From the NCBI GenBank assembly GCA_029866325.1, contig JARWZO010000008.1:1-64000 (forward strand): a stretch of 64,000 nucleotides of DNA, in the 5' to 3' direction. The DNA comes from Fluviicola sp. (GTDB lineage: Bacteria; Bacteroidota; Bacteroidia; Flavobacteriales_D; Crocinitomicaceae). Every line of letters starts with the position of its first letter. The first letter of the stretch is position 1. This document shows positions 25-62,013 of this stretch, piece after piece. Below the pieces are notes generated by a model. That model was not told where the DNA came from. It searched no databases and saw only the letters and a list, made by a program, of their open reading frames with translations. The position numbers and the translations under genes are program-made.

Positions 25-32
25 TAATTTCG
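25..32 (+). promoter_or_regulatory. -7-like box TAATTTCG, 4 nt before the ATG
   Basis: TAATTTCG is followed by TGGT and the ATG at 37. It matches the Bacteroidota -7 consensus TAnnTTTG at all but one position. The spacing puts transcription start at or next to the ATG. Confidence 0.5.
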
Positions 33-36
33 TGGT

Positions 37-726
37 ATGAAAAATTCTCCCATTCAAACTTCGACATTCACGTTTCTCACCGATTTAAAAGCCAACAATA
101 ACCGCGAATGGTTTGCCGAGCATAAACCGCGTTACGAGCAAGCACATCAGAATATGATTCAGTTTGCCGACAGTTTGTTGGAAAAGATGATTGTGCACGA
201 CAATATTTCGACCGCTTCCGGTAAAGCAAGTTTGTTTCGTATCTATGCCGACACCCGCTTTTCGAAGGACAAAACGCCTTACAAAACCCATTGGGGATTG
301 CGTTTCGCGCGTGCCACCGATTTTCTGAGAGGAGGAATTTACGTTCACATTGAACCCGGAAATAGTTTTGTAGGTGGTGGTTTTTTCAACCCGAACGCCG
401 ACGATTTATTCCGCATTCGGCAAGATATTGAACTCAACTACGAAGATTGGAATGCATTGTTTGCCAATCCGCGCATCAAGAACACCTTCGGAAATTTAAG
501 AGGTGAGCAGCTCAAAACCGCACCGAAAGGTTTTCCAAAAGATCATCCGGGCATTGAATTTCTGCGACACAAACAATTTCTGCTTTCTAAAACATTTACC
601 GATCAAGAAGTTTTGTCGACTGATTTTGCTTCGCAACTGGATGAAACCATCCAACAACTCAGACCATTCTTTGATTATATGAGCGAGGTGCTGACTACGA
701 ATACGAATGGGGAATCTATTCTTTAA
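37..726 (+). CDS. DUF2461 family protein
   Basis: A 229-residue cytosolic protein with the DUF2461 (TIGR02453) layout: an N-terminal 'F..L..NN.REWF...K..Y' motif, then 'FRIYADTRFSKDKTPYKTH' around residues 67-85, then 'G...H.EPG.....GG.F.P'. The biochemical function of this family is not established. A second, divergent member lies at 32208-32882, so the genome carries at least two. There is no signal peptide. The ATG is preceded by a -7-like box only 4 nt away and no ribosome-binding site is visible. It converges on the S9 peptidase gene, and the two are separated by an inverted repeat. Confidence 0.85.
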   Translation: MKNSPIQTSTFTFLTDLKANNNREWFAEHKPRYEQAHQNMIQFADSLLEKMIVHDNISTASGKASLFRIYADTRFSKDKTPYKTHWGLRFARATDFLRGGIYVHIEPGNSFVGGGFFNPNADDLFRIRQDIELNYEDWNALFANPRIKNTFGNLRGEQLKTAPKGFPKDHPGIEFLRHKQFLLSKTFTDQEVLSTDFASQLDETIQQLRPFFDYMSEVLTTNTNGESIL

Positions 727-740
727 TTGAAAATTAAAAA

Positions 741-816
741 TGTAAAATTGAAAAGAAGACAAAGCAAAGCTTTCGATATAAACAAGCGTTAGCGCAGTTT
801 CCTTTTCAATTTTACA
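741..816. repeat. Inverted repeat between convergent genes
   Basis: TGTAAAATTGAAAAG (741-755) pairs perfectly with CTTTTCAATTTTACA (802-816), 15 bp with a 46-nt loop. It sits between two convergent stop codons and ends 10 bp from the S9 peptidase stop. It is too A+T-rich and long-looped to be a confident terminator, but it could end transcription on both strands. Confidence 0.5.
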
Positions 817-825
817 TTTTCAATT

Positions 826-3258
826 TTACATTCTATTCTTCACATACTTCTCCAACCACTGATCTTGTTCCCACAATAAATGTAGAATTGATTCGAGCGC
901 TGCGTAACCATGACTTTCTTTCGGAAGCATCACCAACCGCACCGGAGCACCGAATCCTTTCAAGGCTGCGAAATAACGCTCACTTTGAATGGGGAACGTT
1001 CCGGGATTGTTGTCGTTTTCACCGTGAACGATCAACATCGGTGTTTTCATTTTATCGGCATAGTTGAATGGCGACATTTCGTTGTAGGTTTCCTGCGCAT
1101 CCCAGTAGTTGCGTTCTTCGCCCTGAAATCCGAAAGGCGTTAACGAACGATTATAAGCTCCGCTACGGGCAATTCCGACAGCAAACAAATCGGAATGTGT
1201 TAACAGATTGGCAGTCATAAACGCGCCGTACGAATGTCCTCCAACCGCTACTTTCCGGCGGTCGATGTAGCCTAAACTATCCACGGCATCAATCGCAGCT
1301 TTGGCATTTGCGACCAATTGCTCGATAAACGAATCGTTCGGTTCAGCAGTGCCTTCCCCCACAATCGGGAAAGCCGCGTTGTCGAGTACCGCATATCCGC
1401 GTGTGACCCAATAAATCGGTGATCCGTAATTCGGAAAAATAAACTCATTCGGATTGGTGGTATTTTGCGACGCACTGTTTTTGTCTTTAAATTCTTGCGG
1501 ATACGCCCACATCACCATTGGCAATTTCTCTTTTTTCTTTCTATCGTAGCCAACAGGAAGGTACAGTGTGGCTGTTAACTCCAATCCGTCGGCACGTTTG
1601 TACGAAATCACTTCCTTGTGAACACCGGCAATTTTCTTGAACGGATTTTCGAAATGTGTAATAGAGATTGGAGCAGCCTTACCCGACATTTTTCGCACAT
1701 AATAATTTGGGTATTCGCTCGGCGATTGAATGCTCACCAACAATTCACTTTTTTTCAGGTCGATGATATCAACGATGGTTTCCATTTTGTCGGTAAGCGT
1801 GCTGCGGTAAAGTGTTTTGGTGACTTTGGTTTTCAGGTCAATTTGATTCACAAACGGGAATTGACCTTTTTCGGTATAACCATCCCCGATAAGGTAAGCC
1901 AAAGAACCTTCCAATTTCAAAACATACCTTCCGAAACCATTTCTGTCGGTTTGAAAATTACCCGGATTGGCATATTCATCTTGTGAATTTCGGTCAAACA
2001 ACACTGTCAATCCTTTTGAAGGATCTGCCGGATTAAACAAATATGTTTTCTCGTTTCGGGTATTATGCCAGTTATCGTAAACGATTGCCAAATCTGCTCT
2101 TCCCCAAGAAATTCCGCCGTATCGTTGAGGTGTTTTCAACAACGGTTTCCAGCCGTTTTCTGCAAACGGAGCTTCCCAGGTAAATACTTCATCGCGTTCT
2201 TTTACTTCAACTGCAGGATCTCCGCCATCCAAGGCTTCCACCCAATATAATGTTGCAGGATGATCATCTCTCCAAGTAATCTGGCGTTTTCCTTTTTGCA
2301 CCGCCATGAATCCTTTCGGCATGTTGTCGATCAATGGTTTTTCATCAACCACACGCACCAATTTCCCGGTTTGGTCATACAAACAAGTTGTTGTAGGAAA
2401 ACTGGAATAGGTCACCACGTAAGAAAACGGGCGTTTGATGGTTGTAATCATAACATATTTTCCGTCGGGCGAAAAACTCTCACGCAAGTGCATGTCGGTT
2501 GTTTTCCAGATAGATGAAGTTCCGTCGAGTTTCACTTTATGTAATTCAGAACCGGCTAGTAATTCAAAATTTTCTTCATCAATCTTCGTTTTCAGCAAAT
2601 CCGCATACGTTCTGTTTTGTGCAATAGAACCGTCACTTGTCGAAACCGAAGGTCCGCTTGGAACGGTCACCAATGCATCGATAAACGGCTTTCTATTGCC
2701 CGGCAATACGCGTACAAGCAATGATTGACTATCGGCAAACCATTTGAACGGTGAACCCATATTTCCATTCAGGTTTGCACCGCTGATCTTACGTGCGGTT
2801 TGCGTTTTTATATCGATCACCCACAATTCCAAACCGTTTGCAACGATGTTGGTAGCGGCAATGTATTGCTCATTGGGCGACCAGGAAACATTGGTTAATT
2901 TGGGATTTGCAGGTAAACCCTTTACAAAAACAGGTTCGTCCGAGCGCGAAATCTGAATACTCAATTTGGTATAATAGCGTGCTCCGCTTACATTATTGGT
3001 TTTTGGATTGATGCGCAAACCCGCCAGTTTCAGTTCCTGCTCAGAAACCTCTTCGATGGTTTTGTACATGTTGCTATAGAGAAAAACCAATACTTGTTTT
3101 TTACTATCCATGCTCACTGAAGGAGCGCGATCTACCTTCACCAATTCTAAAATTTCTTGTGGCGGAACCTGGTAGTTAAGTCCTTCTTGAGCGGCTATAT
3201 TCGAAACGAATAATCCGGTGAATGCGGTAATTGCAGCAATTTGTTTCAACACTGTCAT
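826..3258 (-). CDS. Secreted S9 family serine peptidase (prolyl oligopeptidase/acylaminoacyl peptidase type)
   Basis: An 810-residue exported peptidase. An N-terminal signal peptide ends near 'SNIAAQ' (about residue 23). A beta-propeller region covers roughly residues 90-530 and an alpha/beta-hydrolase domain the last 250 residues. The catalytic triad is visible: Ser676 in GGHSYGAF, Asp749 in HGEND and His783 in ESHGY. Members of this family cleave peptides after Pro or N-terminal acyl groups; the substrate here is unknown, and a periplasmic location is inferred from the signal peptide. A -7-like box TATCTTCA lies at 3278-3285, giving a short leader. It is a single gene, divergent from the transglutaminase-like gene at 3363. 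Confidence 0.92.
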   Translation of the reverse strand: MTVLKQIAAITAFTGLFVSNIAAQEGLNYQVPPQEILELVKVDRAPSVSMDSKKQVLVFLYSNMYKTIEEVSEQELKLAGLRINPKTNNVSGARYYTKLSIQISRSDEPVFVKGLPANPKLTNVSWSPNEQYIAATNIVANGLELWVIDIKTQTARKISGANLNGNMGSPFKWFADSQSLLVRVLPGNRKPFIDALVTVPSGPSVSTSDGSIAQNRTYADLLKTKIDEENFELLAGSELHKVKLDGTSSIWKTTDMHLRESFSPDGKYVMITTIKRPFSYVVTYSSFPTTTCLYDQTGKLVRVVDEKPLIDNMPKGFMAVQKGKRQITWRDDHPATLYWVEALDGGDPAVEVKERDEVFTWEAPFAENGWKPLLKTPQRYGGISWGRADLAIVYDNWHNTRNEKTYLFNPADPSKGLTVLFDRNSQDEYANPGNFQTDRNGFGRYVLKLEGSLAYLIGDGYTEKGQFPFVNQIDLKTKVTKTLYRSTLTDKMETIVDIIDLKKSELLVSIQSPSEYPNYYVRKMSGKAAPISITHFENPFKKIAGVHKEVISYKRADGLELTATLYLPVGYDRKKKEKLPMVMWAYPQEFKDKNSASQNTTNPNEFIFPNYGSPIYWVTRGYAVLDNAAFPIVGEGTAEPNDSFIEQLVANAKAAIDAVDSLGYIDRRKVAVGGHSYGAFMTANLLTHSDLFAVGIARSGAYNRSLTPFGFQGEERNYWDAQETYNEMSPFNYADKMKTPMLIVHGENDNNPGTFPIQSERYFAALKGFGAPVRLVMLPKESHGYAALESILHLLWEQDQWLEKYVKNRM

Positions 3259-3350
3259 ACTTGTGATTTTTCAGCGATGAAGATAGCCTTTTTTCACACA
3301 TTCGTCTTGTCATTTTTTGTGGTAGAATTGTAACTTCAACTGAATAATGG

Positions 3351-3358
3351 TATTATTG
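3351..3358 (+). promoter_or_regulatory. -7-like box TATTATTG, 4 nt before the ATG
   Basis: TTG (3328-3330), 20 nt spacer, TATTATTG, ATCT, ATG at 3363. This fits the TTG-N17-23-TAnnTTTG arrangement with one mismatch in the -7 box and predicts a leaderless transcript. Confidence 0.45.
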
Positions 3359-3362
3359 ATCT

Positions 3363-4472
3363 ATGCTTTACTTAAAACCTTCAATCGGGCTCATTCTTGC
3401 GTTATTTCTTGCAATAGCAAGTCATTCACATGCTTCGATTGATGAAAAGCGGCAATTTCAGCTGGACAGCATCAGCACGAACATTCCAAAAGAAAGCAAA
3501 CAAAATTTAGATCAGGTACATACATTTCTTCACAAAAACGGACGCACTGATGAAGAACGCGTCTGGTTGTTTTACGGATACATCGCAACGCATTTTAAGT
3601 ACGATCAAAAGCGCAAAGGAGAGAGGGATGCTCCTATTTTTAGTCCGGAATATACCGCGCAGCGTCGTTCGGGTGTTTGTCGTGATTTCTCGAAAGTATT
3701 TTTGGTTTTGTGTCAAAAAAGCGGAATTCCCTGTTTGGAAGTCACCGGTCGGACGCCCATTCCGGTTTGGGAAATCATAGGAAACTGGCTTCACCATATG
3801 AAAAGCACCTATACGCATCGCTGGAATGTAGTGAAAGTAAACGATACGTGGATGCTGATGGATCCAACTTGGAGTTCTGTAAAAGAGACACAACGAATCA
3901 GGCATTATGACCCAAAAAAGAAGGTGAATTTTACTGTTTTGGTGAAAATACCGGCGCGTATTTATTACAATCCCGACCCTGTTTTTATGATGAAAACCCA
4001 CGCTCCTATTCACCCAGCTTTTTTATTGCTTTCGGATAGTTTACCTACATTTAAAACAGCGCGCAAGAAAGAAACACGACAAAAATTCTTCTGCTCAAAC
4101 TACCATTTCAGCGACACAATTGACCTTATTTATGCTGCTAAATTCCCGCTGTTTTCGAAAACGTATTACACTGGCTGTATGAAATACTCAAAAACGGCAG
4201 CAATGCTCAACAATTACGAGTACGAACTTTCATTACCGGTTCAGAAATCTGCAAGATACAAGCAACCTACGCTGGAACAATTCGACAATGCTTTACTCCA
4301 AGCTAGGGAACTTACCACATATATTCATTCGGAAACAGGAATAGCTTATACCGACAAACTCAAACTATTTGAAGAAGAATTAGCCAAAAAGCGCGCGAAA
4401 TTGAAGAAAAAACTTGACGCTGAGGAAAAGGCGAAGAAGAAGAAAGCACCTAAGAAAACTTCAACTCAATAA
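3363..4472 (+). CDS. Exported transglutaminase-like protein
   Basis: 369 residues. A signal peptide (about 1-24, ending HSHAS) is followed by a transglutaminase/cysteine-protease-like core with the expected triad: Cys106 in RRSGVCRDF, His152 in THRWN and Asp167 in LMDPTW. The C-terminal 30 residues are almost only Lys, Ala, Glu and Arg, a charged helical tail. Bacterial members may cross-link or hydrolyse peptides; the substrate cannot be told from sequence. The 3' end overlaps the 3' end of the convergent gene at 4461-5021 by 12 bp, and that gene also has a transglutaminase-like core. Confidence 0.85.
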   Translation: MLYLKPSIGLILALFLAIASHSHASIDEKRQFQLDSISTNIPKESKQNLDQVHTFLHKNGRTDEERVWLFYGYIATHFKYDQKRKGERDAPIFSPEYTAQRRSGVCRDFSKVFLVLCQKSGIPCLEVTGRTPIPVWEIIGNWLHHMKSTYTHRWNVVKVNDTWMLMDPTWSSVKETQRIRHYDPKKKVNFTVLVKIPARIYYNPDPVFMMKTHAPIHPAFLLLSDSLPTFKTARKKETRQKFFCSNYHFSDTIDLIYAAKFPLFSKTYYTGCMKYSKTAAMLNNYEYELSLPVQKSARYKQPTLEQFDNALLQARELTTYIHSETGIAYTDKLKLFEEELAKKRAKLKKKLDAEEKAKKKKAPKKTSTQ

Positions 4473-5021
4473 ACGAATACACGTTTCTCTGTCTTCCCAC
4501 AATTCGTCAAACGTTTTGTTGATTTGCGAATTACGTTTCAACCAACCTTTAACATATTCCTGGTGAATCTTGGGTTTCCATTCCACAACTTGGTGTGGTT
4601 CGATGCGCTGTTCGCGAACAATCTTCGGAGCAATGCGTTCCATGGCATTTGACGTATCGGTATAATCGAAACGCTGTCCTTTATAGCGCAAGTAACAATG
4701 ACATTCAGGAATATTCGCATACGATTTATCGGCAAAAAAGGAAGTCAGTTTGGGATGCGTTTCACCCGACATCAGAAAGATTCCGGCGATGAGTTCCACA
4801 TCCATCAATCCATTTTCCTCGGCCAATGCGGCTAATAATCCGTGTTTTGAAGAACAAGAACCTTTCCCCTCTGAAAGTACCAATGAAAAATCGGAACGAT
4901 CTGCATTTCTGCCATAAGGCAATGATTGAACGTACAAACAAGCTGCTTCGAAATCGGTGATTCCCAGCTCAATGAACTGTTTTGAGTAGACTGAATCTGA
5001 TGAAAGAGGAAATTTAACCAT
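4461..5021 (-). CDS. Cytosolic transglutaminase-like protein
   Basis: 186 residues without a signal peptide. 'EGKGSCSSKHGLLAALAEENGL' around Cys56, then His108 (ECHCYL) and Asp119 (QRFDY), resembles the Cys-His-Asp order of transglutaminase-like superfamily proteins. The family is recognised only by this pattern and the function is unknown. It converges with, and overlaps by 12 bp, an exported transglutaminase-like gene. It lies downstream of ffh on the same strand, 158 bp away, with an inverted repeat in the gap, so joint transcription is uncertain. Confidence 0.65.
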   Translation of the reverse strand: MVKFPLSSDSVYSKQFIELGITDFEAACLYVQSLPYGRNADRSDFSLVLSEGKGSCSSKHGLLAALAEENGLMDVELIAGIFLMSGETHPKLTSFFADKSYANIPECHCYLRYKGQRFDYTDTSNAMERIAPKIVREQRIEPHQVVEWKPKIHQEYVKGWLKRNSQINKTFDELWEDRETCIRLLS

Positions 5022-5034
5022 ACATCGATTTTTG

Positions 5035-5161
5035 ATGCTTGATTTTTGATGTTTGATGAGAGCTTACTCTTAAGTTGAAGATTCCCCTTCTATTTTGCAA
5101 TATTTTATAACTGTTAACTAACTTTGTCAACTTACCTGGAATCTCATCAAAAATCAAGCAT
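5035..5161. repeat. 17-bp inverted repeat flanking the ffh 3' region
   Basis: ATGCTTGATTTTTGATG (5035-5051) and its exact complement CATCAAAAATCAAGCAT (5145-5161) are 93 nt apart. Each arm is itself made of TTTTTGATG/TTGATG iterations. The right arm ends 18 bp before the ffh stop codon. No coding potential is seen between the arms. Confidence 0.55.
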
Positions 5162-5179
5162 TCAACATCAAGCATCCTA

Positions 5180-6529: not shown

Positions 6530-6890
6530 GGTGTTTCAATTTTGGATTGCGAAGATAGTGATTCCGACGGATATGTTGTATTTGAAGCAGGGATTTTCGG
6601 GATTTTTATTGGTACATTTAATTGGTGAAGAAATCGGGTTTTCAGAGTGGTAAATTTCGAAGAGCAGAGGTCGATTAGAAGTAAGTTTTTTTTCTATAAT
6701 AAAGCCTCTAGCGAAATAAAGTCTTAATCTTTTTTGGTGCAGTGCCACTTGGAATACAACATCTATTAATCTGATAATAAAATGATTTGGTATTCTTCAT
6801 CAAGTGTCTTGCCATATAGTTAGAACGTCTTTTTGAATCCAATTTTGATTTGTTAAGAGAATTGCCGTTTTCTTCTCTTATATTATAAAA
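6530..6890. other. A+T-rich intergenic stretch without a convincing gene
   Basis: About 360 bp between ffh and the SUKH-like gene. It contains the ffh promoter region at its left end and a small inverted repeat AAGAGAA/TTCTCTT (6855-6861/6873-6879) just downstream of the SUKH-like stop codon. A 70-codon minus-strand reading frame at 6536-6748 has no recognisable motif and is not called. Confidence 0.5.
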
Positions 6891-7355: not shown

Positions 7356-7483
7356 GTTCTGTTTTTACAACCACCTTTCACTTTGTTTAACCCGATGTTA
7401 AATGCAGCTTATTTCAATCCTCTAAGATAACGGAAAGTGCATTATGACATGAACCAAATCGTAAGGAGATGCTGAGTTTTGAC

Positions 7484-8809: not shown

Positions 8810-8957
8810 GACCTTTTGTTCTTGGTGAAACATTGGTCAAAGTTGCAACATCGTTACAGCTTTGTCCAAAAAAGCATTATATACAAGACCTATACAAGTT
8901 GCTTCATTGGATGAAAAGCACCTATACAATTTAGATACAATAAGAATTAAACCGCTG

Positions 8958-10580
8958 TTAATCTGAGTGATACGTATATTTTGATAGAAAGGAGATCAAA
9001 TCTATCTCGGTATGTGTTAGATTTAGTTTTTTGCGCAACCTGGAACGTGCTATGGTAATACTGTGTACACTTTGTCCGGTAATCGCAGAAATTTCTTTGC
9101 TAGACATATTCAATGAAAGGAAAGCACACAGCTTGCGTTCGTTGGGCGTTAAACCGGGGAAATCATTTTCGAGTGCTACAAAAAACTGTGGATTTACTTT
9201 TTCAAAACGAATCTCGAACTCTTCCCATCGTTTGTTGTTTAAGTTTCCTTTCAATTCGCGGATAAGGTCTTGAATAACTTCTTGTTGTTCTTTCGATCCT
9301 TTTGGAAGAGTGTCGCGTAACTTATCCGACAAGCCATTTACCAAGTTGTCTTTTTCGAGTAAATACAATGCTTTTGCCGCTACTTCACGCTCAGTTGCAT
9401 CCAGTTCCAATTGCATTCGTTCTTTTTCTAAGCGTTGATTTTCAGATTGTATTGCATTGAGGATACGCCGCGATTTTTGGCGTTTAACCAATATGTAAAT
9501 AACCCCAATGGCCGTTAATGCAATCAAAACTGAGATGATCAACCATAGATTTGCCCGATCATTTTCAGAACGTAATTTCAATTGATTTAATCTGCTAGTG
9601 GTTTTTAATTGATTGATGCGCAATTTGTAGTCATAGGCGAATGACTGATTGGATAAATCAGACTGTCTGCTCGAATCAATGTAAACCAATTCAATCAACC
9701 GATTTTCATACGCCAATTCAAAATTATTCTGAGAGGCATAAGCTTTGGAAATTCCTCTAAACAACTGGGCTTTTTCATTGTAGGTCGGCAAATAACTCAA
9801 TCGCTTTTTTGCTTGTTCAAAATAAGACAAAGCCAAGTTGGATTCTCCTTGATCAAAACTAAAAAGCCCCATGTAAATGTACCGTTGCACATCATCGGTT
9901 TTTTCAGGTGTTAGCAGCGCTATTTTTAATGAACTTTCCAAATAATGATGCGCACTATCCGGTAGATTGAGGTAAATAAAAGCAACCCCCATGTTGTTTA
10001 ATATGGCTGACTCTAAGACTTGGTTGTTGTTTGTTCTGCTAACGGTGAGTCCTTCTTTGTAAATACGTAAAGCCTTTTTAAATTGGCCTTTTGCAATGAG
10101 TGCAATTCCGTAATTACATAAAATATTATCTCTTCGATAATTGGTATTGCTTTGCTCACTTAAAGAAAGTGCCCGCTCAAATTGTTTGTACGCTTTTTCA
10201 TGATTGGTGGCATCATAGTAATATAACTCGCCCAATTTATCTTCGTAAAACAGTTTTAATTCTACATTTCTGGATGAATCGGCTAAGTGTTTTAATTGAG
10301 ACATATAATACATGGCTCTTTCAAAATCATTCATGCGTGTGATCATCACTGTAGCCAGTTTATCCAGCACATCTCTTTCACATTCTACGAGACGGTTTTT
10401 TTTAGCAAGATCAAGGGCATAATGTAGTTGATTGACCCCAGACGACGGTTTTGATTCAAACAAATAATCAGAATCGTTGAGAATGGACGTTATTTCTTTG
10501 ACAACTGCTCTGCTTTTCTGCGCTCTCAAAGAGAATACACAAAAGAAAACTCCAAGAATTAGCATTCCTCTCTTGACCAT
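8958..10580 (-). CDS. Membrane-anchored TPR protein with LuxR-type HTH
   Basis: 540 residues from ATG 10580. A signal peptide is followed by five or six tetratricopeptide-like helices (about 50-310), one transmembrane helix (345-365, LIISVLIALTAIGVIYILV), a coiled coil (375-415) and a C-terminal helix-turn-helix of LuxR/GerE type (about 476-535, 'LTPNERKLCAFL...KEISAITGQSVHSI...RLRKKL'). Such periplasmic-TPR/cytosolic-HTH regulators are common in Bacteroidota and presumably transmit an envelope signal directly to DNA. No kinase or receiver domain is present. The target is unknown; T9SS protein genes flank it on both sides. Its ATG is preceded by TAAATTTTG with a 3-nt gap. Confidence 0.82.
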   Translation of the reverse strand: MVKRGMLILGVFFCVFSLRAQKSRAVVKEITSILNDSDYLFESKPSSGVNQLHYALDLAKKNRLVECERDVLDKLATVMITRMNDFERAMYYMSQLKHLADSSRNVELKLFYEDKLGELYYYDATNHEKAYKQFERALSLSEQSNTNYRRDNILCNYGIALIAKGQFKKALRIYKEGLTVSRTNNNQVLESAILNNMGVAFIYLNLPDSAHHYLESSLKIALLTPEKTDDVQRYIYMGLFSFDQGESNLALSYFEQAKKRLSYLPTYNEKAQLFRGISKAYASQNNFELAYENRLIELVYIDSSRQSDLSNQSFAYDYKLRINQLKTTSRLNQLKLRSENDRANLWLIISVLIALTAIGVIYILVKRQKSRRILNAIQSENQRLEKERMQLELDATEREVAAKALYLLEKDNLVNGLSDKLRDTLPKGSKEQQEVIQDLIRELKGNLNNKRWEEFEIRFEKVNPQFFVALENDFPGLTPNERKLCAFLSLNMSSKEISAITGQSVHSITIARSRLRKKLNLTHTEIDLISFLSKYTYHSD

Positions 10581-10583
10581 AAC

Positions 10584-10592
10584 CAAAATTTA
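10584..10592 (-). promoter_or_regulatory. Possible -7 box (TAAATTTTG) 3 nt before the ATG
   Basis: The minus strand reads TAAATTTTG-GTT-ATG. It has one base more between TA and TTTG than the consensus, so this is the weakest of the leaderless-type boxes. Confidence 0.3.
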
Positions 10593-13169: not shown

Positions 13170-13173
13170 GTTT

Positions 13174-13181
13174 CAAAGATA
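13174..13181 (-). promoter_or_regulatory. -7 box TATCTTTG, 4 nt before the ATG
   Basis: The minus strand reads TATCTTTG-AAAC-ATG, a perfect TAnnTTTG match. It predicts a leaderless mRNA for the propeller protein gene. Confidence 0.55.
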
Positions 13182-13588: not shown

Positions 13589-13642
13589 GAACGGGGCGTG
13601 TCAAAAGAAAGTGATTCAACTTTTTTTTGACACGCCCCGTTC
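13589..13642. repeat. Perfect 18-bp inverted repeat abutting palindrome copy B
   Basis: GAACGGGGCGTGTCAAAA (13589-13606) pairs exactly with 13625-13642, with an 18-nt loop ending in a T run. The right arm overlaps the left arm of copy B by 4 bp (13639-13642). The G+C-rich stem is unlike the surrounding A+T-rich DNA. Confidence 0.8.
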
Positions 13643-13699
13643 GTAATATTGCAAATTGGCATGTCAAATAACCCGACGTAAATTCGCAATATTACGAAC
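13639..13699. repeat. 55-bp palindrome family, copy B
   Basis: Arms GTTCGTAATATTGC (13639-13652) and GCAATATTACGAAC (13686-13699). The interior differs from copy A by a G for A (GGCATGTCAAATAACCCG) and by one base less. It is in the same orientation as copy A, 164 bp on. Confidence 0.85.
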
Positions 13700-21294: not shown

Positions 21295-21302
21295 CAAAGA
21301 TA
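21295..21302 (-). promoter_or_regulatory. -7 box TATCTTTG, 4 nt before the ATG
   Basis: The minus strand reads TATCTTTG-AACC-ATG. Same box and spacing as for the gene ending at 13169, so a leaderless mRNA is predicted. Confidence 0.55.
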
Positions 21303-27407: not shown

Positions 27408-28703
27408 TTAAGAAGGCAATCTGCCCATCAACTGCCGTACATCCCTTCCACTTGGGTTTTCGAATAACTCCAGTTCAAAAGCTTCAACCGTAGCAAACAA
27501 ATGATCGAAAATATCACCCATCACCCGTTCGTAACCATTCCATTCTTTGTCTTTGGTAAAACAATACACTTCTAACGGAACACCATTCGGAGTTGGTGCT
27601 AATTGTCTTGAAATCAGGGGCATTTCATGATTCACTTCGGGGTGATTGGCCAAGTATTTTTCTACATACATTCTGAACAACCCGATATTGGTTTGGCGTC
27701 GTGCATTGATCGATTCGTCCACATCAAAACCGTGTTCTTTGTTATAAGCCTCTATTCCCGATTGTGTTGTTTTGATGTATTCTTCCAATACTCTGATTGA
27801 ACTTAGTTTTTTAAGCAATTCATCCGAAGCAAAATGAATGGTATCAATCTGAATAAATATCGAACGTTTAATTCGCCTTCCGTCCGATTCCTGCATTCCG
27901 CGCCAGTTGATAAACGAATCACTGATAAATGCATAGGTTGGAATCGTAGTAATCGTCTTATCAAAGTTTTGCACTTTTACGGTTGCCAGATTAATTTCCT
28001 GCACCGTTCCGTCGGCGCCGTATTTATCCATGGTTACCCAATCGCCTAGGCGGATCATATCGTTCGCCGCCAATTGAAGGCTTCCCACAAAACCCATAAT
28101 CGTGTCTTTGAACACTAATACCAAAATGGCGGTCATGGCTCCAAGAGAAGTGAGGAAAAACAACGGTGATTGATTGGTAACGCGCGCAAGAATCAGAATT
28201 ACAAAAATACCTGTAATAATGATTTTAGTAATCTGAAAATAGGATTGAACGGGTTTGTCTCTGTAAACTTCCTTTTCCTGTAAAATATCGCGCAAGGCAT
28301 TCAATGTACGGTTGATGGAAACCAAAATCACCAAAATGATCAAGACGTCTAATACGCGGTTGGCTGCTACATTCCAAGTGGGATATTGGTAAAAAACAAT
28401 GGAAAAAAAGTGTTCCATGAAAGTCAGCGGCAGCAAAAACGCAATTGCTCGGAAAACTTTGTTGTTAATCAGGTGATCGTCCCAGGTTGTGGAAGAACGG
28501 TCTGCAATCAAACTCAAGCCACGCAATAAAATCTGGCGTGCAATCCACCACATGATCAACGAAATAAGAATCGTTGAGAGGAATAACCCAATGGCCCAAA
28601 ACGGCGCTTGCTCCTGAAAAGTAGCTTTGTCTAAGTACCATTCTCCCGAGCTGTTTCGGTGAATGTAGAAATTCCGGATCCAATCAATGATAAATTCCTT
28701 CAC
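27408..28703 (-). CDS. MscS-family mechanosensitive ion channel
   Basis: 431 residues, GTG start. Several membrane helices (about 30-50, 78-100, 110-130, 155-175, 178-200) are followed by the MscS pore helix and beta domain: 'DTIMGFVGSLQLAANDMIRLGDWVTMDKYGADGTVQEINLATVKVQNFDKTITTIP' region (about 200-255) and 'FINWRGMQESDGRRIKRS'. The C-terminal cytosolic region (~290-431) resembles YbdG-type MscS proteins. It opens on membrane tension or osmotic downshift. It is divergent from the CPBP protease gene; the two -7 boxes overlap at 28711-28727. Confidence 0.93.
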   Translation of the reverse strand: MKEFIIDWIRNFYIHRNSSGEWYLDKATFQEQAPFWAIGLFLSTILISLIMWWIARQILLRGLSLIADRSSTTWDDHLINNKVFRAIAFLLPLTFMEHFFSIVFYQYPTWNVAANRVLDVLIILVILVSINRTLNALRDILQEKEVYRDKPVQSYFQITKIIITGIFVILILARVTNQSPLFFLTSLGAMTAILVLVFKDTIMGFVGSLQLAANDMIRLGDWVTMDKYGADGTVQEINLATVKVQNFDKTITTIPTYAFISDSFINWRGMQESDGRRIKRSIFIQIDTIHFASDELLKKLSSIRVLEEYIKTTQSGIEAYNKEHGFDVDESINARRQTNIGLFRMYVEKYLANHPEVNHEMPLISRQLAPTPNGVPLEVYCFTKDKEWNGYERVMGDIFDHLFATVEAFELELFENPSGRDVRQLMGRLPS

Positions 28704-28710: not shown

Positions 28711-28727
28711 TATTTTTGTCAAAATTA
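28711..28727. promoter_or_regulatory. Two opposed -7 boxes facing each other
   Basis: Plus strand TATTTTTG (28711-28718) points to the CPBP gene and minus strand TAATTTTG (28727-28720) points to the mscS-like gene. Each box lies in the other's start region, so the two promoters should compete. Confidence 0.45.
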
Positions 28728-32943: not shown

Positions 32944-32998
32944 CGTAATATTGCAAATTGGCATATCAAATAAACACTCGTAATTTCGCAATATTACG
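32944..32998. repeat. 55-bp palindrome family, copy C
   Basis: CGTAATATTGC (32944-32954) and GCAATATTACG (32988-32998). Interior AAATTGGCATATCAAATAAAC as in copy E. A single copy between the convergent DUF2461 and msrA genes. Confidence 0.85.
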
Positions 32999-33010: not shown

Positions 33011-33541
33011 CTACTTCAAGCGCGCTCCAAAGACCTGTTTAAACTTCTCTACTTTCGGACGAACAACCGCCTGACAATAAGCATTCCCCGGATTGAGTTC
33101 GTAATAATCACGGTGATAATCTTCTGCAGGATAATAATTTGTGAGTGGCGAAATTTCCGTTACAATCGGATTGTTCCAAACACCTTCTTCGGTTAACCGC
33201 TGCTTATAATTTTCGGCAATATCTCGTTGCTCTTCATCGTGAAAGAAAATCACAGAGCGATACTGTGTACCGATATCATGCCCTTGACGGTTAAGTTGTG
33301 TCGGATCATGCACAAACCAAAAGACTTCCAATAATTCGTCAAATGAAATTAGCGCATCATCATAAACCACACGCGCTACTTCTGCATGTCCTGTTGTTCC
33401 TGCACACACTTCTTTGTAAGTTGGGTTATCTGTTTTCCCTCCGGAATAGCCGGATTCGACACTGATAACACCGTTTAATTCTTTATAACACGCCTCGATG
33501 CACCAGAAACATCCTGCGCCTAATGTCGCTTCTTTTGTCAT
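33011..33541 (-). CDS. msrA: Peptide methionine sulfoxide reductase MsrA
   Basis: 176 residues. The catalytic motif GAGCFWC has the nucleophile at Cys11 and Cys14 beside it, followed by 'VESGYSGG' and 'QYRSVIFFHDEEQ'; the C-terminal 'NAYCQAVVRPKVEKF' is also standard. It reduces (S)-methionine sulfoxide in proteins with thioredoxin. A -7-like box TAACTTCA lies 4 nt before its ATG. Confidence 0.97.
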   Translation of the reverse strand: MTKEATLGAGCFWCIEACYKELNGVISVESGYSGGKTDNPTYKEVCAGTTGHAEVARVVYDDALISFDELLEVFWFVHDPTQLNRQGHDIGTQYRSVIFFHDEEQRDIAENYKQRLTEEGVWNNPIVTEISPLTNYYPAEDYHRDYYELNPGNAYCQAVVRPKVEKFKQVFGARLK

Positions 33542-33545: not shown

Positions 33546-33553
33546 TGAAGTTA
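33546..33553 (-). promoter_or_regulatory. -7-like box TAACTTCA, 4 nt before the msrA ATG
   Basis: The minus strand reads TAACTTCA-TCCC-ATG. Two of four TTTG bases differ, but the spacing matches the other leaderless-type genes. Confidence 0.35.
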
Positions 33554-35496: not shown

Positions 35497-35504
35497 TACT
35501 TTTG
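35497..35504 (+). promoter_or_regulatory. -7 box TACTTTTG before the MFS gene
   Basis: Perfect TAnnTTTG between the GT-C-like and MFS genes, 7 nt before the TTG start at 35512. It suggests a separate, very short-leader transcript. Confidence 0.4.
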
Positions 35505-37263: not shown

Positions 37264-37268
37264 GGATG

Positions 37269-37276
37269 CAAAATTA
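37269..37276 (-). promoter_or_regulatory. -7 box TAATTTTG, 5 nt before the GTG
   Basis: The minus strand reads TAATTTTG-CATCC-GTG, a perfect consensus. It predicts a leaderless mRNA with a GTG start. Confidence 0.5.
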
Positions 37277-37308
37277 TCATTATTTTCACAGAATCAAAAC
37301 CCTTCATT

Positions 37309-37665
37309 TTGAGCAAACTAGCAGATATTCAATTAACAAAGTTGTATTACTCCATTGGAGAGGTTGCTACCATTTTTGATGTAAACGCCTCATTAATAAG
37401 GTTTTGGGAAAAAGAATTTACGATTATTCAACCCAAAAAAAACAAGAAGGGAAATCGTTTATTTACAGTAAAAGACATTGAACATTTTAACAAGATTTAT
37501 CAACTTGTAAAAATGGAAGGTTATACATTGGATGGCGCTAAAAAAGCCCTAAAATCAAAGGATTCAGCCGATTTGGTTAGCAATTTTTCAAACGATCAAA
37601 TCATTCTTCGCTTGGAAGAAATCAAGTCAAAACTACTTTCGTTGAAAAAAGACGTAAAGGAGTAA
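37309..37665 (+). CDS. MerR-family transcriptional regulator
   Basis: 118 residues, TTG start. Residues ~8-80 form a winged HTH of MerR type ('YYSIGEVATIFDVNASLIRFWEKEF', 'KNKKGNRLFTVKDIEHFNKIYQLVKMEGYTLDGAKKAL') followed by a short helix. It lacks a C-terminal ligand or metal-binding domain, like the small MerR proteins widespread in Bacteroidota. Target unknown; the divergent NlpC/P60 gene is the closest candidate. Confidence 0.9.
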   Translation: MSKLADIQLTKLYYSIGEVATIFDVNASLIRFWEKEFTIIQPKKNKKGNRLFTVKDIEHFNKIYQLVKMEGYTLDGAKKALKSKDSADLVSNFSNDQIILRLEEIKSKLLSLKKDVKE

Positions 37666-39068: not shown

Positions 39069-39076
39069 TAATTTTG
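39069..39076 (+). promoter_or_regulatory. -7 box TAATTTTG, 4 nt before the ATG
   Basis: TAATTTTG-CGGT-ATG, perfect consensus. Nearly identical to the sequence before the gene at 61252. Confidence 0.55.
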
Positions 39077-40325: not shown

Positions 40326-40406
40326 CGTAATATTGCAAATTTACGTGTCAAATACACTCACGTAAATTCGCAATATTACGAACAGTTGTTTTTGTGAAAA
40401 ACGACT
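40326..40406. repeat. 55-bp palindrome family, copy D plus tail hairpin
   Basis: CGTAATATTGC (40326-40336) and GCAATATTACG (40370-40380). The interior is more diverged than in other copies (AAATTTACGTGTCAAATACAC). The tail 40381-40406, AACAGTTGTTTTTG...AAAAACGACT, is shared with copy E and forms its own ~10-bp stem. Confidence 0.8.
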
Positions 40407-40483: not shown

Positions 40484-40563
40484 CGTAATATTGCAAATTG
40501 GCATATCAAATAAACGCCCGTAATTTCGCAATATTACGAACAGTTGTTTTTTGAAAAACGACT
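40484..40563. repeat. 55-bp palindrome family, copy E plus tail hairpin
   Basis: CGTAATATTGC (40484-40494) and GCAATATTACG (40528-40538), 158 bp after copy D and in the same orientation. The tail 40539-40563 repeats that of copy D. Confidence 0.8.
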
Positions 40564-53813: not shown

Positions 53814-53852
53814 CGCAGTATTTTTAGAGTCGTTTGCAATTCGTATGCCATC

Positions 53853-55385
53853 CTATTCCCACTCAATTGTAGCAGGAGGTTTGGAGCTGATATCGTAGGT
53901 CACGCGATTGATTCCTTTCACGTGATTGATAATTTTATTGGAAATCAAGGCAAGAAACTCGTACGGTAAATGACACCAGTCGGCAGTCATACCATCTGTA
54001 GACGTTACGGCGCGCAACGCAACCGCATTTTCGTAGGTACGTTCGTCGCCCATTACACCAACCGATTGAATCGGAAGGAAAATAGCGCCGGCCTGCCATA
54101 CTTCGTTGTACAAACCGTGTTCTTTTAAACCGTTGATGAAAATCGCATCCACTTCCTGCAAAATCCGTACTTTTTCAGCGGTTACTTCGCCCAGAATGCG
54201 AATACCCAAGCCAGGTCCGGGGAACGGATGACGGTTCAATATATTCTCAGGCAAATCCAATGAACGACCAACGCGTCTTACTTCGTCTTTAAACAACAAA
54301 CGCAACGGTTCTACTACTTGCAATTTCATGTAATCCGGCAACCCGCCTACATTGTGGTGCGATTTAATCGTTTGTGAAGGTCCGCCGTTTACGGAAACCG
54401 ATTCAATTACATCCGGATAAATTGTCCCTTGTCCCAACCATTTGGCATCGGTCACCAATTTCGATTCGGCATCAAATACATCGATGAACACTTTACCTAT
54501 AGCTTTGCGTTTTAATTCCGGATCGGAAACACCTTTTAAAGCTGCGTAAAATGCTTCGGTAGCATCCACTCCTTTTACATTCAAGCCCAATCCTTTATAC
54601 GATTCCAATACAGACGAAAACTCATCTTTACGCAACAAGCCGTTATCAACAAAAATGCAACGTAAACGATCACCGATTGCCCGATGCAACAACATAGCAG
54701 CTACCGAAGAATCTACTCCGCCCGAAAGACCGAGAATTACTTTGTCTTCACCTAATTGTTGTTTGAGTTGATCAACCGTTGTTTCAACAAACGAATCAGG
54801 AGTCCAATTCTGGCTGCAACCACAAATCTCAACAATAAAATTGCGCAACAAAATTGCTCCTTCCAATGAGTGATATACTTCCGGGTGAAATTGAATTCCA
54901 AACGTTGTTTCTCCCTCAACGGCATATCCGGCCACTTCCACATCGGATGTACTGGCAATAATTTTATAGTTCTCAGGAATCGTTTTAATCGTATCTCCGT
55001 GACTCATCCACACCTGTGAACCATCGGTCATGTTTTTCATCAACACGTTCGACTGATCTACAAACGACAGATTCGCGCGACCATATTCACGAATGGTAGA
55101 AGGCAAAACTTCACCACCGAATTGTTGCGCCATGTATTGCGCACCGAAACAAACACCCAATAACGGAAAACGTCCTTTGATCAACGATAAATCGGGTTTA
55201 GGAGCTTCCGGATCGCGGGTTGAAAACGGGCTACCTGACAAAACAATGCCCTTGATATGAGCACCGAGTTCAGGTATTTTGTTCCATGGATGAATTTCAC
55301 AATAGACATTCATTTCACGAACACGACGAGCGATTAACTGGGTGTATTGCGAACCAAAATCGAGAATTAAAATCATTTCCTGCAT
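53853..55385 (-). CDS. guaA: GMP synthase (glutamine-hydrolysing)
   Basis: 510 residues, full length. Class I amidotransferase domain: Cys79 in GVCFGAQ, His167 and Glu169 in QFHPEVY. ATP-pyrophosphatase: SGGVDSS (221-227). Then the C-terminal dimerisation domain ending '[17 protein letters not shown]'. It converts XMP to GMP. The -7 box TATCTTTG is 5 nt before the ATG. Confidence 0.98.
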
Positions 55386-55390
55386 GACCG

Positions 55391-55398
55391 CAAAGATA
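55391..55398 (-). promoter_or_regulatory. -7 box TATCTTTG, 5 nt before the guaA ATG
   Basis: The minus strand reads TATCTTTG-CGGTC-ATG, a perfect consensus, and predicts a leaderless or near-leaderless guaA transcript. Confidence 0.5.
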
Positions 55399-55557
55399 AT
55401 AGCATCTGGTAAAAGTCACCGCATCAATTTTGAATAGTTTTCAGGAGTTTACTGACAACAGCCGTAATAAAAGTGTCAATTTGGCAGATTCGATTGTTTT
55501 GGAATAATTTATGACGAACCGATCACACAAAATAACCCACAAGCACGGGAATTTCAT

Positions 55558-55565
55558 TATTTTTG
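55558..55565 (+). promoter_or_regulatory. -7 box TATTTTTG of secA
   Basis: Perfect TAnnTTTG, 23 nt before the ATG at 55589. It lies inside the upstream in-frame extension, which argues for the downstream start. Confidence 0.45.
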
Positions 55566-55588
55566 GGCTTCGCATTTTTAAGTATACC

Positions 55589-58500: not shown

Positions 58501-58939
58501 CAATGAATGGAAAGAGCACTTACGTGAAATGGATGATTTGCGTACATCGGTTCAACAAGCCGTTTACGAACAAAAAGATCCGTTGCTGATTTATAAACTC
58601 GAATCATTTGAATTGTTCAAGGGAATGATGGCTCGTTTGAGTGCAGAAACAATTGAATACCTGGTAAAAGCAGATTTGATGCAAGAACAGGAAGTAAAAA
58701 GCACCAATCTTGAAGTGGCTGAAAATCATTACGAGAAAGCGCAAATCAATACTTCAGATACCACTTCAAGCACTCCTCAACCACGTTTTCAGGGAAGTGA
58801 AGGTTACGATGAAGCCATTCGCAACTCTGCCCCGGTTCGTGAAAAACAACAACCGGTTGTGGTTGAACCGAAGATTGGACGAAATGATCCTTGTCCTTGT
58901 GGTAGTGGTAAAAAATACAAACAATGTCACGGTAAATAA
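55589..58939 (+). CDS. secA: Protein translocase subunit SecA
   Basis: 1116 residues from ATG 55589 ([19 protein letters not shown]), long for SecA as usual in Bacteroidota because of insertions in the nucleotide-binding domain region (about 40-130 and 290-400). Walker A 'MQTGEGKTL', Walker B '[11 protein letters not shown]', '[12 protein letters not shown]', '[14 protein letters not shown]' and the C-terminal zinc-binding '[19 protein letters not shown]' are present. It drives ATP-dependent translocation of signal-peptide proteins through SecYEG, including the first step for the T9SS cargo seen here. The frame upstream to 55511 is not needed. Confidence 0.98.
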
Positions 58940-58964
58940 ACAGTAATCAACATTCATAACTAGT

Positions 58965-58992
58965 GGGCTGTCAGTATTGATAGCCCTTTTTT
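58965..58992 (+). terminator. Rho-independent terminator of secA
   Basis: GGGCTGTCA (58965-58973) pairs with TGATAGCCC (58978-58986), 9 bp with one G-T, loop GTAT, then T6. Confidence 0.85.
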
Positions 58993-59106
58993 ATGCGGAC
59001 ATTTCAACCAAATAAAACACATGACACTGATAATCAAACGGTTAATGATCTGTATGTTTTCTTAACATAAAGTTGACTTACACAATATTCGTTGAAAATG
59101 TTTAAT

Positions 59107-59129
59107 TAATCGACCAAAACAGTCGATTA
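59107..59129 (+). promoter_or_regulatory. Operator-like inverted repeat upstream of the 59188 gene
   Basis: TAATCGAC (59107-59114) and GTCGATTA (59122-59129), 8 bp perfect with a 7-nt spacer, about 60 bp before the ATG. It could be a dimer-binding site; no regulator is known. Confidence 0.35.
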
Positions 59130-59187
59130 CTCATTGTTGCTGACGACATCCAAAAAAGATTCGTCTATTAGATAAAAGCAACGGAAT

Positions 59188-59643
59188 ATGAAAAGCATCT
59201 ACTTACTACTCTTTAGTGCGCTCAACGTTTCAGTCGTATGTGCACAAAACGATCAGCAAGCCATTCAACAATGGCAAAGTGCTCACCCTACTACTCTCTT
59301 CATTTCTGCTGAACGCTACAACGCACTTTCATCAGAAGAACAGCATCTTCTAGGATCAGATTTAATCGTCTATCAGGATAAAATTTCGCTTGCGTTGATT
59401 GAACAACACGAAGCGCTTGCTAAAGCTGAAAACGATCAATCTCAAAAACCTACCAAAACAGAAGATCTTGCGATCATCAAAAATTGGAAGGCCACTAATC
59501 CGGATGTAAAAATTGTTCCAAGATCGATGTTTGATACGATCGAAGCGGAGCGTCAACAATTTTACTTAGAAGATTCGAATTGTTTGATCCTTGCAGGAGA
59601 ATGGCTTACGGTAAAGGATATCCAGTTGTTTGAACAACGCTAG
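59188..59643 (+). CDS. Small exported protein with an internal duplication
   Basis: 151 residues with a signal peptide (1-19, ending VVCAQ). The mature part is a tandem duplication: residues ~25-73 ('AIQQWQSAHPTTLFISAERYNAL') and ~95-150 ('AIIKNWKATNPDVKIVPRSMFDTI'), aligned on Trp29/Trp100 and Pro34/Pro105 and joined by a charged linker. No family recognised. It precedes a T9SS type A gene by 53 bp, the third such pair in the window. Confidence 0.75.
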   Translation: MKSIYLLLFSALNVSVVCAQNDQQAIQQWQSAHPTTLFISAERYNALSSEEQHLLGSDLIVYQDKISLALIEQHEALAKAENDQSQKPTKTEDLAIIKNWKATNPDVKIVPRSMFDTIEAERQQFYLEDSNCLILAGEWLTVKDIQLFEQR

Positions 59644-59696
59644 AACTAACTATACTGCTATCCTCTACTGTTTATAATACTTAAAATCACATTGCT

Positions 59697-61163
59697 ATGA
59701 AACTATTGTTACTCTCTACAGTTATCTTTTCCTTCATTGGATATAAGGTTTCAGCACAATCAAACACACCTTGCACCGCAGGTGTTATAACCGCGCCAAA
59801 CATTGCAGTAAATGCCTCTTGTACTTTTCAAGCAGGAACTACAGTGGGATCCACTCAACAAACCAATGCAGCCAACGGAGGAACTCCTACTTGCGGTTCG
59901 ATGGGACCAGATGTGTGGTATTCATTTACTGCACCGGCTTCCGGCAGTATTAACATCCAAACAAGTGCTGGTGGCATTACAGATGGTGTAATGGCACTTT
60001 ATTCTGGTACCTGTGGAGCCTTTACTCAAATCACTTGTGATGACGATTCTGGTCCTGGTTTTATGCCTCAGATTTCAGCAGGAGGATTAACCCCCGGAGT
60101 TACATACCTGATTCGTTTTTGGCAATACGGTGGTGGTACAGGTACTTTTAATATTTGCGTGTCAGCTGCAGCAGCTCCTGCAGGTAACACAACTTGTGCG
60201 GTTCCAAGTCCGATTTGTTCCGGATCACCGATTAACTTCATTGCCAATGCAGGGGGATCTTCTGCAGATGTTATCAACCCGGGAAATGACTACGATTGTT
60301 TGTTTACCTCTCCAAATCCAAGTTGGTACTACTTAGAAATTGCAACTGCAGGAAACTTGATCATTGACATTACGGCAGGTGCCGATGTGGATTACGAAAT
60401 CTGGGGACCATTCCCAAGTTTGGCAAATGCTATCACCAATTGTAATACTTATGGAGTACCGCAAGATTGTAGTTATTCACCTTCGCCTATTGAACAGGCT
60501 GTCGTAAATGGAGTTATTACAAATCAAGTATATGTTTTACTTGTTACCAATTTCGCAAACGTGGTTCAAACCATTAATATAAACGAAGCTGTGGCCAATA
60601 CAGCTAGTACAAATTGTGCCATTGTACCTTTGCCAGTTGGTTATACATACTGGAACGCGGCATACAATGAAGGTGTGGTTGACTTGGTTTGGGGAACCGA
60701 ATTTGAAGAAAACAACCGTGATTTTGTTGTGCAACGTTCTGCTGACGGATTGGTATGGGAAACAATTGGCGCTGTTGCCGGAAACAATACAACGAACAAT
60801 GCTCAGAGTTATGAATACACTGACAACGCACCACTTACCGGAATCAGTTATTACCGTTTGATGCAAGTAGATGCCGACGGAGGAATTGAATACAACGCGG
60901 TATTATCGGTAAACACAACAGGTATTGAACCGTTTACAGTTTATCCGAATCCGGCGAATAGCAGCTTTAGTATCTATACTAAAAGCAAGAACACTGAACG
61001 TGTAGTATTAACCGATATGGTAGGCAAAACATTCGATGTTGATTATACAACTACGACAAACGGATTGGAAATCGATTGTAGCAATTATGCTGCAGGTGTA
61101 TACACATTAACTGTTGTAAGCAATGGAACAGCACAATCCGAACGATTAATTATCAAGAAATAA
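59697..61163 (+). CDS. T9SS type A secreted protein with two Cys-rich domains
   Basis: 488 residues. A signal peptide (1-20) is followed by a PPC-like domain (~25-155, 'GPDVWYSFTAPASGSINIQTS'), a Cys-rich domain (~165-300, 'NPSWYYLEIATAGNLIIDI', 'DVDYEIWGPF') homologous to residues 26-181 of the adhesin at 47831, a short Fn3-like segment, and a T9SS type A sorting domain (~410-488, VYPNPANSSFSIYT ... SERLIIKK). Predicted secreted or surface-anchored; ligand unknown. A strong terminator follows. Confidence 0.88.
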   Translation: MKLLLLSTVIFSFIGYKVSAQSNTPCTAGVITAPNIAVNASCTFQAGTTVGSTQQTNAANGGTPTCGSMGPDVWYSFTAPASGSINIQTSAGGITDGVMALYSGTCGAFTQITCDDDSGPGFMPQISAGGLTPGVTYLIRFWQYGGGTGTFNICVSAAAAPAGNTTCAVPSPICSGSPINFIANAGGSSADVINPGNDYDCLFTSPNPSWYYLEIATAGNLIIDITAGADVDYEIWGPFPSLANAITNCNTYGVPQDCSYSPSPIEQAVVNGVITNQVYVLLVTNFANVVQTININEAVANTASTNCAIVPLPVGYTYWNAAYNEGVVDLVWGTEFEENNRDFVVQRSADGLVWETIGAVAGNNTTNNAQSYEYTDNAPLTGISYYRLMQVDADGGIEYNAVLSVNTTGIEPFTVYPNPANSSFSIYTKSKNTERVVLTDMVGKTFDVDYTTTTNGLEIDCSNYAAGVYTLTVVSNGTAQSERLIIKK

Positions 61164-61183
61164 GATCCATTTATAAAACAGGA

Positions 61184-61213
61184 ACGGTGGTCTGAATGAT
61201 CACCGTTTTTTTT
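61184..61213 (+). terminator. Rho-independent terminator of the T9SS gene
   Basis: ACGGTGGTC (61184-61192) and GATCACCGT (61198-61206), 9 bp with one G-T, 5-nt loop, followed by a run of eight T. Confidence 0.85.
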
Positions 61214-61239
61214 GACCGAAACTTTCAAACAAAAAAGGG

Positions 61240-61247
61240 TAATTTTG
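61240..61247 (+). promoter_or_regulatory. -7 box TAATTTTG, 4 nt before the ATG
   Basis: TAATTTTG-TGGT-ATG. Same box and spacing as before the proline dehydrogenase gene, so a leaderless mRNA is predicted. Confidence 0.55.
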
Positions 61248-61251
61248 TGGT

Positions 61252-62013
61252 ATGCGTACCATTTCATCCATTTCTATTGTTGGCGCCGGTAATGTAGCCT
61301 TTCACTTGGCAACAGGATTGTTGAAAGCAGGTATCCGTATTGACTACTGCTGGAACAGAACACCCGAGAAAGCAGCAGAATTAGCGGCATTATTTCAATG
61401 TAAAACGGCTTCAACACTAGAAGATTTGGCAAGTAGTGATTTGATTCTATGTGCCGTTTCAGATGATGCACTATCCTCACTATTACCTCAACTTTCGGAC
61501 ATTGCACAGGTAGTTGCCACATCAGGAACGGTAAACGTTCTCCCATTTTCAACCAACTTCCCTGTTGGAGTTTTTTATCCGCTGCAAACGTTTTCTCGCA
61601 ATCGAGCTGTTGATCTTGCTACTGTTCCAATTTTTGTTGAAAGTAGCTCCTCCGAATTCACAAGTGTACTTCTGACGCTCGGAAATACCATCAGCCGAAC
61701 AGTAAACGAACTACCTTGCGAAAAGCGCGTACAACTCCATTTAGCTGCGGTTTTTATCAATAATTTCACCAATCACCTCATCGACATCGCACAGCAACAG
61801 TTAACCCAGGCTGATTTGTCATTTGATTGGCTGAAACCATTGTTGCTTGAAACGGTGGAAAATTTAAACGATCAAACGGCATTTAACGCACAAACAGGTC
61901 CGGCAAGAAGAGCTGATCTTAAAACAATAGAACGGCACATAAACATGCTTTCACCTGAACAGTCAGCTGTTTATAAACTCCTTTCATCCAGTATTCAACA
62001 ACGCTATAAATAA
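61252..62013 (+). CDS. Rossmann-fold DUF2520 protein
   Basis: 253 residues. The N-terminal NAD(P)-binding motif 'SIVGAGNVAFHLATGLLKAG' (about 7-26) with 'WNRTPEKAAELA' resembles pyrroline-5-carboxylate reductase and 6-phosphogluconate-dehydrogenase-like proteins. The C-terminal helical part fits DUF2520 (about 125-250). Substrate unknown. Its stop is 1 nt before the next gene's ATG, so they are an operon. Confidence 0.88.
   Translation: MRTISSISIVGAGNVAFHLATGLLKAGIRIDYCWNRTPEKAAELAALFQCKTASTLEDLASSDLILCAVSDDALSSLLPQLSDIAQVVATSGTVNVLPFSTNFPVGVFYPLQTFSRNRAVDLATVPIFVESSSSEFTSVLLTLGNTISRTVNELPCEKRVQLHLAAVFINNFTNHLIDIAQQQLTQADLSFDWLKPLLLETVENLNDQTAFNAQTGPARRADLKTIERHINMLSPEQSAVYKLLSSSIQQRYK

Follow-up and report, generated by a model that had tools for sequence, protein, structure and literature searches.

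Predicted leaderless genes with a −7 promoter box next to the start codon in a Fluviicola genome, and the conservation of this arrangement at guaA and dnaB

Leaderless or nearly leaderless mRNAs are already on record for three Bacteroidota in which 5′ ends were measured. In Flavobacterium johnsoniae, 4–5 nt separate the −7 element from the transcription start, and 13% of 241 promoters give leaders of 10 nt or less (PMC6847099); in Flavobacterium psychrophilum, 5.5% of 890 genes are leaderless (PMC9723704), and in Bacteroides thetaiotaomicron ~3.7% of leaders are under 10 nt (PMC7366714). The kind of gene described below is, therefore, known from the phylum, at about 4–13%, and these three organisms have the TAnnTTTG promoter in common with the genome considered here, although the latter is known from its sequence alone. 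Moreover, Shine–Dalgarno sequences are not recognised by the ribosomes of the Bacteroidia (PMC9976891). Leaderless genes have also been predicted across 953 bacterial genomes by means of promoter boxes close to their start codons (PMC3160421); there, as here, the sign of leaderlessness is a promoter element (in that case the −10 element) ~12 nt before the start codon, but the boxes were of the form TANNNT, accounting for >20% of genes in Actinobacteria and Deinococcus-Thermus, whereas the box here is TAnnTTTG. A substantial number of Bacteroidetes genes were classed in that survey as atypical, a class that, as its authors allowed, could include leaderless genes with unknown promoter signals.

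An earlier note listed ten genes of the window (the whole stretch of DNA that was analysed, 64,000 nt) as predicted to be leaderless, each with a −7 box immediately before its start codon. Its coordinates are correct when re-read on the sequence, and six of the ten genes have an exact TAnnTTTG at N4 or N5, where the number is that of the nucleotides between box and start codon. On the reverse strand, TATCTTTG lies at 13174..13181, N4 before ATG 13169 of a sortilin-like protein with a Por_Secre_tail domain (Pfam); at 21295..21302, N4 before ATG 21290 of an AAA_30/UvrD_C_2 helicase; and at 55391..55398, N5 before the ATG of guaA (53853..55385), the predicted leaderless gene for GMP synthase (Pfam GMP_synt_C and GATase). 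On the forward strand, TAATTTTG is found at N4 before both ATG 39081 of a proline dehydrogenase (39069..39076) and ATG 61252 of a DUF2520 protein (61240..61247), and the same box occurs on the reverse strand (37269..37276), N5 before GTG 37263 of an NlpC/P60 protein. The remaining four are mismatched, as counted over the six fixed positions of TAnnTTTG. Single mismatches characterize TAATTTCG (25..32, forward strand; N4 before ATG 37 of a DUF2461 gene) and TATTATTG (3351..3358, forward strand; N4 before ATG 3363 of a transglutaminase-like gene); the gene for a TPR-repeat protein (8958..10586, reverse strand) has one-mismatch boxes only if ATG 10580 is its start, and the best box of msrA (33011..33541, reverse strand), at 33546–33553, has two mismatches. 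Absent from that list was TACTTTTG (35497..35504, forward strand), N7 before TTG 35512; in the orthologue from the same genus, TAATTTTG likewise precedes a TTG by 7 nt.

Using the start choice of the present analysis, 4 of the 48 genes in the window have an exact box at N3–N6, whereas 2000 dinucleotide shuffles gave 0.11 on average and never more than 3. When one-mismatch forms are included, the number rises to 7 against a shuffle mean of 2.9 and a maximum of 8, so that mismatched forms are indistinguishable from chance within the window alone. The prediction of leaderlessness stands for genes with exact boxes, but ten was too many. The DUF2461 gene is possibly leaderless (boxes of the form TAnnTTCG have a small N4 peak of their own, 9 in the genome sample), whereas the transglutaminase-like and TPR genes are weak candidates. 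Leaderlessness of the NlpC/P60 gene is doubtful: GTG 37263 is not conserved, the orthologue in the same-genus genome G345 having the same box with an ATG start 16 nt after it. Of the two housekeeping examples offered, guaA survives, but msrA is rejected, both for its two mismatches and because the box of its G345 orthologue is 10 nt upstream of the ATG.

The genome comprises 4.68 Mb in 32 contigs, and 60 stretches of 20 kb together with the window provided a sample of 1.264 Mb (27% of the genome). A dicodon gene finder, in which starts were picked without upstream information, yielded 1059 genes (1058 on a re-run) and replaced an earlier, stricter one that had yielded 797; its choice of starts is imperfect, the ProDH start in G345 being misplaced. 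Across the 1059 genes, the distances separating TAnnTTTG from the start codon have a bimodal distribution, with a peak at N4 and a broad hump from N13 to ~N30: the counts at N3 to N7 are 1, 28, 6, 6 and 3, followed by a near-empty gap at N8 to N12 (1, 0, 2, 1 and 0). Shuffling predicts 0.2–0.9 genes per distance, and the reverse and complement patterns of the box are flat; thus, the genome-wide enrichment near starts that had been named as a test is present and sharp, with 28 genes at N4 versus 0.6 expected. Smaller N4 peaks, of 9 each, are seen for TAnnTTCG and TAnnTTTA, and one-mismatch boxes at N4 number 28 against 12.2 expected, from which about half of these forms would be real. A count over the entire genome gives 116 instances of TAHHTTTG-N4-ATG and 28 of the corresponding N10 form. 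Near-start boxes account for ~41 of 213, or a fifth, of the boxes near genes (10-nt bins to 99 nt, less 5 per bin, the mean of bins 200–289). The N4 peak recurs in the class-level genome G029 (9 of 374 genes) and in flanks from named genomes (20 of 885 genes). The reported lack of Shine–Dalgarno sequences is also borne out, AGGA and GGAG being flat across the upstream positions, and is equally true of leadered genes in the phylum.

A comparison of 42 near-start, 137 leadered (those with the box farther upstream) and 321 gene-internal boxes indicates that the first two groups share a promoter-like fine structure. At 6 and 5 nt upstream of the box, the AT fractions are, respectively, 0.95 and 0.90 for near-start, 0.80 and 0.76 for leadered, and 0.56 and 0.42 for gene-internal boxes. 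G is depleted at box position 4 (0.05 and 0.06 in near-start and leadered boxes, against 0.26 in gene-internal ones); at position 3, the G fractions of the three groups are 0.00, 0.14 and 0.23, respectively. Relative to gene-internal boxes, these are the traits of Bacteroidota primary-sigma promoters (TAnnTTTG, refined to TAHHTTTG, with an AT-rich stretch near −18), and the same AT-rich and G-depletion features are described for F. johnsoniae promoters (PMC6847099). No position stands out for TTTG or TTG near −33 of either near-start or leadered boxes; the −33 element is much less evident in F. johnsoniae too (PMC6847099). A pyrimidine immediately precedes the ATG in 26 of 28 N4 genes as opposed to 571 of 870 other ATG genes (p=0.001), and in 20 of 20 versus 395 of 846 in the named-genome flanks, albeit in just 6 of 9 in G029 and 1 of 3 in G345. 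ATG is the start codon of 28 of 29 N4 genes and of 870 of 1013 others, a difference that is not significant (p=0.07), and predicted folding of the first 40 nt is no different, with means of −2.89 for near-start genes, −2.46 for leadered genes and −3.2 for a sample of all genes (p=0.19 and 0.58).

At guaA, the arrangement is conserved well beyond the genus. In the best 80 orthologues listed from named genomes, which have up to 90% protein identity and derive mostly from Fluviicola, Crocinitomicaceae and Flavobacteriales MAGs, the box is at N3–N6 in 77 (76 from a script, 60 of them at N4, plus L165 after correction of its start); the exceptions are L182 with one mismatch, L199 (Sediminibacterium) with the box at N8, and L169 with none. 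Within the same order, the 30 best-ranked loci, that of the window included, comprise 27 with an exact box at N3–N5, two with one mismatch and one with none; the order and named sets may overlap in species, and near relatives do not count as independent cases. The near-start guaA loci with enough upstream sequence provide 74 distinct upstream strings, in which the information content peaks in the box. In 30 class-level genomes, 16 have an exact box (15 at N3 and one at N5), four have one mismatch, four are leadered, five lack the box and one has no ATG that could be found, while a sample across the phylum, with one genome from each of 30 families, gives six exact boxes at N3–N4, one at N7, five leadered genes and 18 without a box. 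For the class-level loci at N3, +1 is predicted on the A after a gap of 3 nt. In one class-level family (f4; L260, L264 and L266), the near-start box of guaA is TAnnTTCG, rather than TTTG, at N5–N6, a hint that the consensus may have shifted there.

Outside the window, dnaB has an exact box at N4–N5 in 17 of 20 order relatives (14 from a script, and L370, L373 and L375 on a recount), whereas dxr is near-start in 7 of 20, all seven being among the eight members of its own family; for these genes, 59 and 44 other genomes, respectively, gave a match, and upstream stretches were taken from 20 in each case, which were high-ranked and picked before their upstream sequences were seen. A Pfam scan of 35 of the 38 listed near-start loci, in which three N7 cases and two genes split between stretches were left out, identified these two (DnaB helicase and DXP reductoisomerase) together with GatC, uroporphyrinogen decarboxylase, a Dus tRNA enzyme, inorganic pyrophosphatase, GldD and a YfiO/BamD-like lipoprotein; DnaA is also listed (N3, TAAGTTTG), although its box breaks the no-G rule. 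The other genes of the window are less constant. Among the 30 best-ranked order loci in each case, the window's own included, proline dehydrogenase has an exact box at N3–N6 in 11, with N4 kept in G345, and DUF2520 has the box in two, including G345, where the protein is 37% identical. The helicase has TACTTTTA at N4 in G345; of its 30 loci, selected likewise, L119 has an exact box at N4 and five have boxes at N6–N7 (exact in L102, L103, L107 and L108, otherwise mismatched), whereas most have none. The helicase and DUF2520 arrangements were rejected as order-wide traits, as they are mostly not kept.

This turnover is also apparent from reciprocal best hits in the named-genome flanks. Leaving guaA aside, 6 of 58 gene-locus pairs stay near-start, compared with 47 of 50 for guaA; DUF2520 dominates the 58, and start-choice errors lower the count of 6; orthologues of leadered genes are near-start in 2 of 56 cases and those of other genes in 13 of 241. 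Outside guaA, 2 of 4 near-start genes are kept in G345 and 0 of 4 in G029, counts that start-choice errors again lower. Given this low retention elsewhere, guaA and dnaB stand out as exceptions to a general turnover of near-start genes.

The wider distribution was assessed from a table of families covering 217 of 296 genomes, which was put together by hand after both pattern lists were known; the 79 genomes outside it comprise some of f17 together with families including f14, f19, f20, f25–f27, f29, f31, f33, f35, f39–f46 and f48–f50. The ratio of N4 to N10 counts is highest in f24 (215 versus 38, in nine genomes) and f9 (67 versus 13), followed by f1, the family of the window (224 versus 53), and f2 (101 versus 28); it is 1.6–2.2 in f3–f8, and 0.8–1.1 in f37, f16, f32, f30, f11 and f13. 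In f24 (G027, G059, G086, G101, G105, G113, G136, G144 and G232), the leadered pattern at N14–N25 is above its backward control in six of the nine genomes and below it in three, and 9 of 14 exact boxes in 160 kb of one genome are at N3–N6. Near-start boxes thus appear to be equal to, or commoner than, leadered ones in this family.

Several other features were encountered near boxes. Six back-to-back boxes with a spacing of 19 were considered as paired promoters, but this was rejected, as they belong to an interspersed palindromic repeat (13478, 13642–13677, 32944–32979, 40326–40361 and 40484–40519 in the window, with more in C12, C5 and C17 of the same genome, G000). It consists of two arms of 20–22 nt that start ~35 nt apart, carry TAAATTTG look-alikes and would form a strong hairpin, one copy giving −28 kcal/mol. 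When as many as three substitutions are allowed, the 1.264 Mb contain 43 arm matches, some palindromic arms being counted on both strands, and none was found in the sampled relatives (the named loci, G029 and G345). At 28711–28727, between divergent genes at 28703 (reverse) and 28736 (forward), two −7 boxes face each other with a single base between them (TATTTTTG-T-CAAAATTA), and may form a symmetrical bidirectional promoter; pairs as close as this are rare in the sample. Lastly, the short stretch at ~37268–37300, which separates the NlpC/P60 gene from its divergent neighbour at 37309, is near-identical in G345, the flanking proteins being 58% and 80% identical; it may contain overlapping promoters or a regulator site.

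The near-start boxes are very probably ordinary promoters giving leaderless mRNAs, and the arrangement turns over quickly in most genes other than guaA and dnaB. With the −7 element occupying positions −12 to −5 or so relative to the start codon, +1 is expected on or near the A of the AUG, and the published box-to-start spacing of 4–5 nt would likewise place it on or adjoining that base; the combination of a sharp N4 enrichment with a promoter-like box supports the prediction of leaderless transcription for the exact-box genes. Primary-sigma (sigma-ABfr type) RNA polymerase would begin on the A of the AUG or within 1–2 nt of it, and the message would be read from a 5′-terminal AUG. The sequence itself shows the box, its spacing, the peak across the genome, the fine structure of a promoter and the conservation; the exact +1, the mode of ribosome binding and any benefit are what we infer from the arrangement. 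It would apply to a small percentage of genes overall and to roughly one in five of the consensus boxes that lie near genes, the remaining boxes giving leaders of ~10 nt or longer. Gain and loss of the arrangement are quick in most genes, whereas guaA and dnaB keep it over many relatives, and near-start genes may have extra promoters farther upstream. A more ambitious version, which we hold slightly more doubtful than not, is that leaderlessness, with +1 on the AUG, is old and selectively kept in particular household genes of Bacteroidota (guaA in much of the class and dnaB in the order). Very short leaders would then be avoided, from which it would follow that ribosomes without regard for Shine–Dalgarno pairing have two distinct modes of initiation side by side, the leaderless mode being the commoner for consensus promoters in some lineages, f24 among them.

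A constant distance to the ATG would also suit a ribosome contact, and upstream bases do tune initiation in F. johnsoniae (PMC6847099); near-start TAnnTTTG could, accordingly, be a Kozak-like or other translation signal within a leadered mRNA whose promoter is farther upstream. This is very unlikely, since the same box with the same flanks also occurs 13–30 nt upstream of other genes, the AT-rich stretch preceding it is that of promoters, and the reported positive element is an A at −3 (PMC6847099), yet guaA spacers are often C-rich. The errors in start choice illustrated by ProDH in G345, and a second in-frame ATG at codon 4 of the window's guaA, raise the question of whether start codons have been misplaced, with the true starts downstream and the genes leadered. 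However, in 29 of the 77 guaA orthologues with a near-start box, codons 2–11 contain no further in-frame ATG, so that the first ATG is the start there, and the peak at N4 is much narrower than the leadered hump; we consider misplacement highly improbable. Chance matches in an AT-rich genome do explain part of the original list, as the exact and one-mismatch forms of the window together fall within the shuffled range, but chance is already contradicted by the shuffles for the exact boxes taken together, the control patterns are flat and the box is conserved at guaA and dnaB, making this explanation scarcely credible. Ordinary promoters that would produce leaderless mRNAs are, therefore, the preferred explanation.

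The available portions of the three mapping papers (PMC6847099, PMC9723704 and PMC7366714) make no mention of conserved leaderless genes, guaA and dnaB are absent from the main text of both Flavobacterium papers (PMC6847099 and PMC9723704), and no conserved leaderless guaA or dnaB in Bacteroidota was recognised in searches of the open-licence PMC literature. What appears to be new to print is, thus, the sharp bimodality, the retention of the box by guaA and dnaB, and the apparent prevalence of near-start boxes in f24; the contribution of this analysis lies in the clean bimodality, the conservation of those two genes and a corrected list for the window. For gene finding, a box at N4 could help to mark start codons in Bacteroidota. 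Moreover, genes predicted to begin with a bare 5′ AUG, two of which are kept so in relatives, offer a direct test bed for how start codons are chosen.
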